Shown here: positions 1,741-1,812 of the stretch, piece by piece
Layout of the letters: every line of letters starts with the position of its first letter
How positions within the stretch are numbered: the stretch's first letter is position 1
Source of the DNA: a virus
IMG/VR virus record: IMGVR_UViG_3300023178_000284
Span: 1-22,590 of that record
DNA length: 22,590 bases
Strand: one strand, 5' to 3'
Program-made: the position numbers and the translations under genes
The notes under the pieces: model-generated
The model's database searches: none
What the model was told of the DNA's origin: nothing
Seen by the model: the letters and a program-made list of their open reading frames with translations, nothing else

Positions 1741-1812
1741 TTACTTATTCATTACATACATTGTAACTTCAAAACCAAATCTCATTTCTTCGAATGTAGG
1801 TTTAGTCCACAT
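1741..1812 (-). CDS. pqqA: PqqA, pyrroloquinoline quinone precursor peptide
   Basis: A 23-codon gene. The product starts [11 protein letters not shown] and continues [12 protein letters not shown]. It has the length of bacterial PqqA (about 23 residues in Klebsiella) and the family pattern W-x-K-P, R-x-G-x-E-V-T-x-Y. The Glu and Tyr that are cross-linked and become the PQQ carbon skeleton are present as Glu15 and Tyr19, in the correct E-x3-Y spacing. In bacteria PqqE with PqqD cross-links them, and PqqB, PqqC and a protease finish the redox cofactor used by methanol, glucose and related dehydrogenases. No pqqB-E is in this window, so host enzymes would be required. Start: the first ATG, with AAGG 7 nt upstream. 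It lies 95 nt after the methyltransferase stop and is followed by a strong terminator. Function is inferred from the motif; expression is untested. Confidence 0.9.
   Translation of the reverse strand: [23 protein letters not shown]

Follow-up and report, generated by a model that had tools for sequence, protein, structure and literature searches.

Among the closest described systems is the Lake Baikal methylophage VP_266, whose PqqA, described in 2020, was put forward as an auxiliary metabolic gene serving methanol oxidation (PMC7678222). On the bacterial side, Methylophilaceae genomes carry 3 to 12 pqqA genes and usually a single pqqBCDE set (PMC4109929). Higher pqqA alone led to higher PQQ in Gluconobacter, as stated in PMC7936290 with reference to Wang 2016, and disruption of pqqA in M. 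extorquens lowered PQQ but did not abolish it (PMC6520949). The main text of the methylophage isolate papers searched does not mention PqqA.

Here we analyzed a window of 22,590 nucleotides, the whole stretch spanning positions 1 to 22,590 of IMG/VR record IMGVR_UViG_3300023178_000284. An earlier note on this DNA had proposed a phage-encoded PqqA peptide and left its novelty open. Phage pqqA itself was already known from VP_266, whereas no description of its wide occurrence among methylophages was found in the literature searched. The window copy resembles the VP_266 gene in being phage-encoded and proposed to serve methanol oxidation, and it differs from it in two respects: the window's phage is, by its gene content, a T4-like, jumbo-related myovirus, and VP_266 also encodes a methanol dehydrogenase, whereas none of 50 tested pqqA-bearing viral records, isolates included, had a PQQ alcohol dehydrogenase (TIGR03075).

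Identification of pqqA in the window

The gene is a 72-bp open reading frame on the minus strand, read from 1812 to 1741 (ATG at 1812-1810, TAA at 1743-1741) and encoding 23 amino acids, which fixes the strand of the 23-codon gene claimed earlier. Two curated family models matched it over their whole length and far above cut-off, with E = 1.2e-11 for Pfam PF08042 (cut-off, 21.1 bits) and E = 2.3e-12 for NCBIfam TIGR02107 (cut-off, 20 bits); the scores and the positions of all features are given in Table 1. Glu15 and Tyr19, the reactive residues named in the earlier note, are both present and lie four residues apart. In the six-frame profile search which that note had suggested, this was the sole PqqA match in the whole record (E = 7.7e-13), and none of 14 control genomes gave a PqqA match; chance is thus excluded. 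These profile matches confirm that the open reading frame encodes a genuine PqqA, the ribosomal precursor peptide of pyrroloquinoline quinone (PQQ). It shares with Methylophilaceae-type PqqA (PF08042, TIGR02107) its length, W2-K4-P5, R11-G13, Glu15, Tyr19, and the C-terminal VMNK, and it differs in being phage-encoded with no pqqB-E nearby and in residues 6 to 8 (TFE), which do not occur in the host set. No pqqB-E was found within the 22.6-kb window, which bears out the orphan status of the gene. PHROGs has no family for the PqqA peptide, and the window gave no match in scans for Rfam families and tRNAs.

The Shine-Dalgarno sequence in front of the gene and the terminator behind it, both described earlier, were located on the minus strand. 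Upstream, the window has a leader hairpin placed like the hairpin and T-tract (GTGTAGTAGGAAACTGCTACAC...TTTTTTT) of the relatives L126, L301, and L023, and a putative promoter-like block whose AATGATTTT element is common to relatives.

Table 1. Positions of pqqA, its signals, and its neighbors in the window, and of the leader RNA in relatives and hosts
Feature	Position	Strand	Basis
pqqA, 23 codons + stop	1741..1812	-	PF08042, 44.7 bits; TIGR02107, 46.4 bits
Shine-Dalgarno AAGGA, 6 nt 5' of pqqA ATG	1819..1823	-	Sequence
Intrinsic terminator 3' of pqqA, AGGGCCTACGGGCCCT + TTTTTATTTT	1717..1732	-	Sequence
Leader hairpin TGTAAC-ATATA-GTTACA then T8, upstream of pqqA	1832..1856	-	Sequence
Promoter-like block (putative), AATGATTTTACGTATTG...CTATAAT, upstream of pqqA	1872..1903	-	Sequence; -35 match poor
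Methyltransferase-domain protein (Methyltransf_24), island cargo absent from relatives	1908..2561	-	Profile match
2OG-Fe(II) oxygenase, convergent, island cargo absent from relatives	1126..1713	+	Profile match
Virion structural protein, island border, conserved in relatives	2561..4750	-	phrog_13484, E = 1.4e-9
Terminase large subunit, T4-like	4764..6353	-	56% identity to PA5oct-type jumbo phages
gp32-like ssDNA-binding protein, 3' end cut by window, other island border	1..957	-	phrog_1192, E = 3.9e-63
Leader RNA, relatives	L023:938-1013; L027:806-883; L085:4622-4700; L098:6636-6707; L131:5949-6031		
Leader RNA, relatives	L135:4912-4998; L137:9944-10019; L143:10503-10577; L144:9286-9358; L145:4192-4264		
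Leader RNA, hosts	L388-L399		

Genomic context

In the window, pqqA lies between the methyltransferase-domain and the convergent 2OG-Fe(II) oxygenase open reading frames, within an island bordered by the structural protein and terminase genes on one side and the gp32-like gene on the other. Sheath and tube genes are also among the phage neighbors, and this gene content marks the window as a 22.6-kb fragment of a T4-like, jumbo-related myovirus. Its terminase is 61% identical to that of a 356-kb contig carrying pqqA (IMGVR_UViG_3300023174_000036; L021/L384), a relationship that suggests the existence of jumbo methylophages. When relatives were picked by terminase alone, without use of pqqA, the interval between the structural protein and gp32 genes proved to be a variable island in which the window's methyltransferase and oxygenase are missing. 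The pqqA gene was retained in 10 of 14 complete spans and was absent from the records of the other four (L128, L140, L141, and L146, the last three alike); thus, it is not essential to the window's phage group. The 22-kb fragment also carries two different 2OG-Fe(II) oxygenases (1126-1713 and 8671-9237), and a perfect sigma-70 consensus promoter, TTGACA-17-TATAAT, stands before the gp32-like gene at 1019-1047.

Distribution of pqqA among phages

A tblastn search with three different PqqA queries covered 50,697 phage records. Nine methylophage GenBank records carry pqqA (Venkman, P19250A, MEP301, MEP401, MEP402, and four Melnitz), and they come from at least three unrelated groups; the only other matches were one spring-water virus and two Acinetobacter-labelled contigs. 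MEP431-434 and some other methylophages named in the taxonomy were not among the matches and may be absent from the phage collection. Like the window copy, the pqqA of the isolates stands alone, occurs once per genome, and usually has its own Shine-Dalgarno sequence, and it differs in that the phage groups and insertion sites are unrelated. The DNA that P19250A shares with MEP301 and MEP402 is limited to 70 to 95 bp around pqqA, and in DNA comparisons among MEP301, MEP402, P19250A, and the spring-water virus the gene gives the best match or almost the only one. Many unrelated phage lineages carry pqqA at different insertion sites. None of the phage records inspected had a pqqA annotation; because annotation skips tiny genes, pqqA in the nine methylophage records stayed unseen apart from one report. 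Hypothetical proteins annotated in MZ577095.1 (74848-74943) and MW202481.1 (2067-2195) run antisense to the real pqqA, so that the annotation there is on the wrong strand. The Acinetobacter-labelled matches were set aside: CAKLQF020000010.1 (L157), labelled Acinetobacter phage MD-2021a, carries on inspection a bacterial pqqA-pqqBCDE operon and is probably misfiled in the phage collection, and CAKLQH020000055.1 looks similar.

Pattern scans of IMG/VR returned at least 120 matches each, those listed not being a random sample. The GAG-coded subset of pqqA is complete at 85 contigs and made up 9 of the 120 matches listed in a scan, from which we estimate, with wide error, that about 1,000 to 1,100 IMG/VR contigs carry pqqA. 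Exactly one pqqA was present in each of 50 viral records, and PqqE over cut-off in none of these; among 170 viral loci none had pqqB-E, compared with 28 of the 117 host loci. Weak, partial radical-SAM matches in four of the 50 records (17 to 28 bits against a cut-off of 381 bits) were rejected as phage PqqE.

Two departures from the common peptide were seen. A variant with W12 occurs in L465, L497, and L330 with the same leader RNA (described below); it keeps Glu and Tyr and scores 25.9 bits on TIGR02107, and in L465 and L497 it also has T17C (MWVKPEATELRWGFEICMYVANR). A second viral type, ...[IV]RLGFE[IV]TMYF..., was found in L003, L008, L010, L014, L018, L024, L031, L035, L074, and L114; it is unlike the methylotroph hosts seen and might indicate phages that infect a different group of PQQ-making hosts. 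Additionally, two phage pqqA genes (L463 and L426) are split after the second T of codon 14 (TTT), just before Glu15. The insert in L463 (242 nt, 12402-12643, plus strand) is a group I intron (RF00028, 84.9 bits), and that in L426 (233 nt, minus strand, starting about 41 nt into pqqA) resembles it, with a score below that of the RF00028 family. Joining the exons restores an intact PqqA in both.

Probable hosts

A PqqA motif scan of 84,980 species genomes, with a pattern that favors low-GC genomes, gave matches of which the first 117 listed were almost confined to methylotrophs (Methylophilaceae, Methylophaga, and Methylomonas). The earlier note had proposed looking for pqq genes in the likely host; among 20 methylotroph genomes, PqqE was found over cut-off in 18, and pqqA was present in 1 to 12 copies per genome, mostly scattered. 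The C-terminal VMNK of the window peptide is Methylophilaceae-like, and the Methylophaga peptide ends in ICNR. Judged from the peptide type and the leaders of its relatives, the window phage probably infects Methylophilaceae, probably of the OM43 clade.

A leader RNA before pqqA in relatives and hosts

Directly upstream of pqqA, relatives of the window phage have a covarying RNA of about 50 nt. It folds into a P1 stem of 6 pairs, an internal loop (UCAA / GA[AU]CU), and a P2 stem of 6 pairs, and ten relatives have the P1/P2 stems with CUCAA / GANCUG and a pairing P2 just upstream of the gene. No credible match was found in the window itself, nor in L126 and L301, and the window's pqqA has lost, or never had, this leader. 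Nine leader copies folded singly all formed the P1/P2 structure. An alignment of 24 phage and host leaders, itself fitted to the structure, has 97.4% of its pair cells formed and double changes at 9 of the 12 pairs, a score reached by none of 500 shuffles; an independent alignment of 10 sequences gave 97.5% of pair cells, 5 pairs with double changes, and again 0 of 500 shuffles. Across 66 distinct cores, P2 pairs 2 to 5 swap between UA, GC, CG, and AU. The leader had no Rfam match.

A model of the leader, whose E values are rough, matched once in each of 13 small host genomes of OM43 type and had no match in 32 further genomes, almost all of them from methylotrophs; all 12 host copies inspected lie 82 to 96 nt before the pqqA start. 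An IMG/VR scan with an RNA pattern free of pqqA letters, together with the loci in hand, gave 73 distinct instances with at least 5 of 6 P2 pairs, a figure that is not wholly independent because some loci were first fetched through pqqA. These were followed by pqqA (61), variant pqqA (2), intron-split pqqA (2), a contig end (6, of which 4 stop inside or at pqqA), or unrelated sequence (2). The covariation and the almost exclusive linkage to pqqA thus mark the leader as a real pqqA-specific RNA in the relatives and hosts.

A covarying aptamer-like fold in the 5' leader, present in relatives and hosts and not in the window, makes this RNA a riboswitch candidate. The literature searched, which did not extend to the principal RNA catalogue with its 224 motifs, described no PQQ riboswitch. 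We do not claim sequestration of the Shine-Dalgarno sequence by the 3' strand of P2, for which the complementarity is mostly 3 to 4 of 5, and a hairpin before the Shine-Dalgarno sequence that competes with P1 is at most tentative, since it forms in 51% of shuffles as well as in 52 of the 66 leaders. At somewhat less than even odds, we suggest that a cis-regulatory pqqA leader not described before is common to phages and methylotrophs of the OM43 clade and acts, probably, as a riboswitch for PQQ or a related signal or else as a translational operator, and that methylophages take pqqA with its leader or rebuild the control, tuning peptide supply to cofactor demand.

Proposed role of the phage peptide

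The phage neighbors of the gene, the methylotroph hosts of the isolates, and the presence of pqqE in hosts agree with the earlier suggestion of an auxiliary metabolic gene, whose expression and benefit would be as follows. We consider it probable (about 0.8) that the phage encodes a genuine PqqA and re-supplies only the consumed substrate, with host PqqB-E making PQQ and thereby sustaining methanol dehydrogenase. The gene would form a short transcription unit of its own and be translated in the infected cell, host PqqD would present the phage peptide to host PqqE, which would cross-link Glu15 to Tyr19, and host proteases, PqqB, and PqqC would then complete PQQ. The phage would supply only the peptide because each PQQ consumes one PqqA, which needs continuous synthesis, whereas the host enzymes, being catalysts, survive shut-off. 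A phage halting host gene expression would exhaust the consumable PqqA first, so that one 23-codon gene may be the cheapest way to sustain PQQ and methanol dehydrogenase. More PQQ would keep methanol dehydrogenase (XoxF/MxaF) active, and energy and carbon would thus continue to flow to phage production. Cyanophages carrying psbA (D1) likewise replace the quickly consumed component of a host energy system whose stable components endure; this is an analogy only, with a different pathway and no homology. The rise of PQQ with pqqA in Gluconobacter and its fall on pqqA disruption in M. extorquens lend outside support to the supply model. Nevertheless, given the several pqqA copies of hosts and the incomplete loss of PQQ in M. 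extorquens, limitation by PqqA in OM43 is only an assumption.

The earlier note had offered two purposes, PQQ supply and diversion of the PqqD/PqqE machinery. Supply appears to fit better than diversion because the reactive Glu and Tyr are invariant: both are encoded in all 123 distinct viral contexts among the matches listed, with GAA or GAG and TAT or TAC, under a search pattern that left these two codons free, and the viral codons vary synonymously around them. A decoy or inhibitor that occupies PqqD/PqqE, or is cross-linked without maturing, and so lowers host PQQ and redirects metabolism, is therefore unlikely, since neither residue would be needed for it. Competition for the chaperone is biochemically possible in a phage without PqqB-E, and residue 4 is always Lys in the terminase-selected group and Thr or Gln in many host copies. 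However, outside that group the search patterns themselves selected in part for Lys4, and the common viral peptide is letter-identical to a host one (30 viral, 12 host).

Across 13 distinct syntenic copies of pqqA, dN/dS was about 0.14, and the window peptide recurs identically in the Melnitz-like contig L106 despite 9 base differences, all 9 synonymous. A strong Shine-Dalgarno sequence precedes 147 of 153 distinct viral pqqA genes versus 3.8% of control ATGs, and a terminator lies within 110 nt of 60 of 151 versus 1.4% of control stretches. Many viral sets were collected with degenerate PqqA-like DNA patterns, so that in these sets the search itself accounts in part for the conserved W, P, R, G, and T; this does not apply to the terminase-selected group. 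Thus, both conservation checks proposed earlier turned out in favor of the gene, and no relative with a broken frame or one lacking Glu or Tyr was seen, though 4 of 14 spans are without it. In its Shine-Dalgarno sequences, dN/dS, and synonymous differences, viral pqqA has the marks of a short open reading frame under purifying selection, and the window pqqA, as far as its sequence tells, is a real gene under selection. It is very improbable that the gene is a passenger, a host fragment acquired by chance with no role in infection. Being tiny and multicopy in hosts, pqqA is easily acquired, and the island between the structural and gp32 genes holds variable cargo; however, besides the low dN/dS and the Shine-Dalgarno sequences, the gene occurs at different sites in many unrelated lineages, and in two copies a group I intron or an insert resembling one lies next to the Glu15 codon, conserved sites being favored by such introns.

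We give equally little credence to PqqA as raw material for a non-PQQ product of a phage or host radical-SAM enzyme, for which the weak radical-SAM matches could speak; these are partial, far under the PqqE cut-off, and missing in 46 of the 50 pqqA-bearing records. Contamination by a bacterial pqqA, as in the inspected one of the two Acinetobacter-labelled records, is already refuted for the window, where, as in its relatives, pqqA has the terminase/structural genes on one side and gp32 on the other, and nine sequenced methylophage records carry the gene.

Implications

As a practical host marker, pqqA flags methylophages almost exclusively among about 50,700 phage records. The leader is a compact new candidate regulatory RNA and ties the window's phage group to OM43 hosts. 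If phage pqqA raises PQQ in infection, phages would have direct control over the methanol oxidation of methylotrophs that abound in coastal waters.
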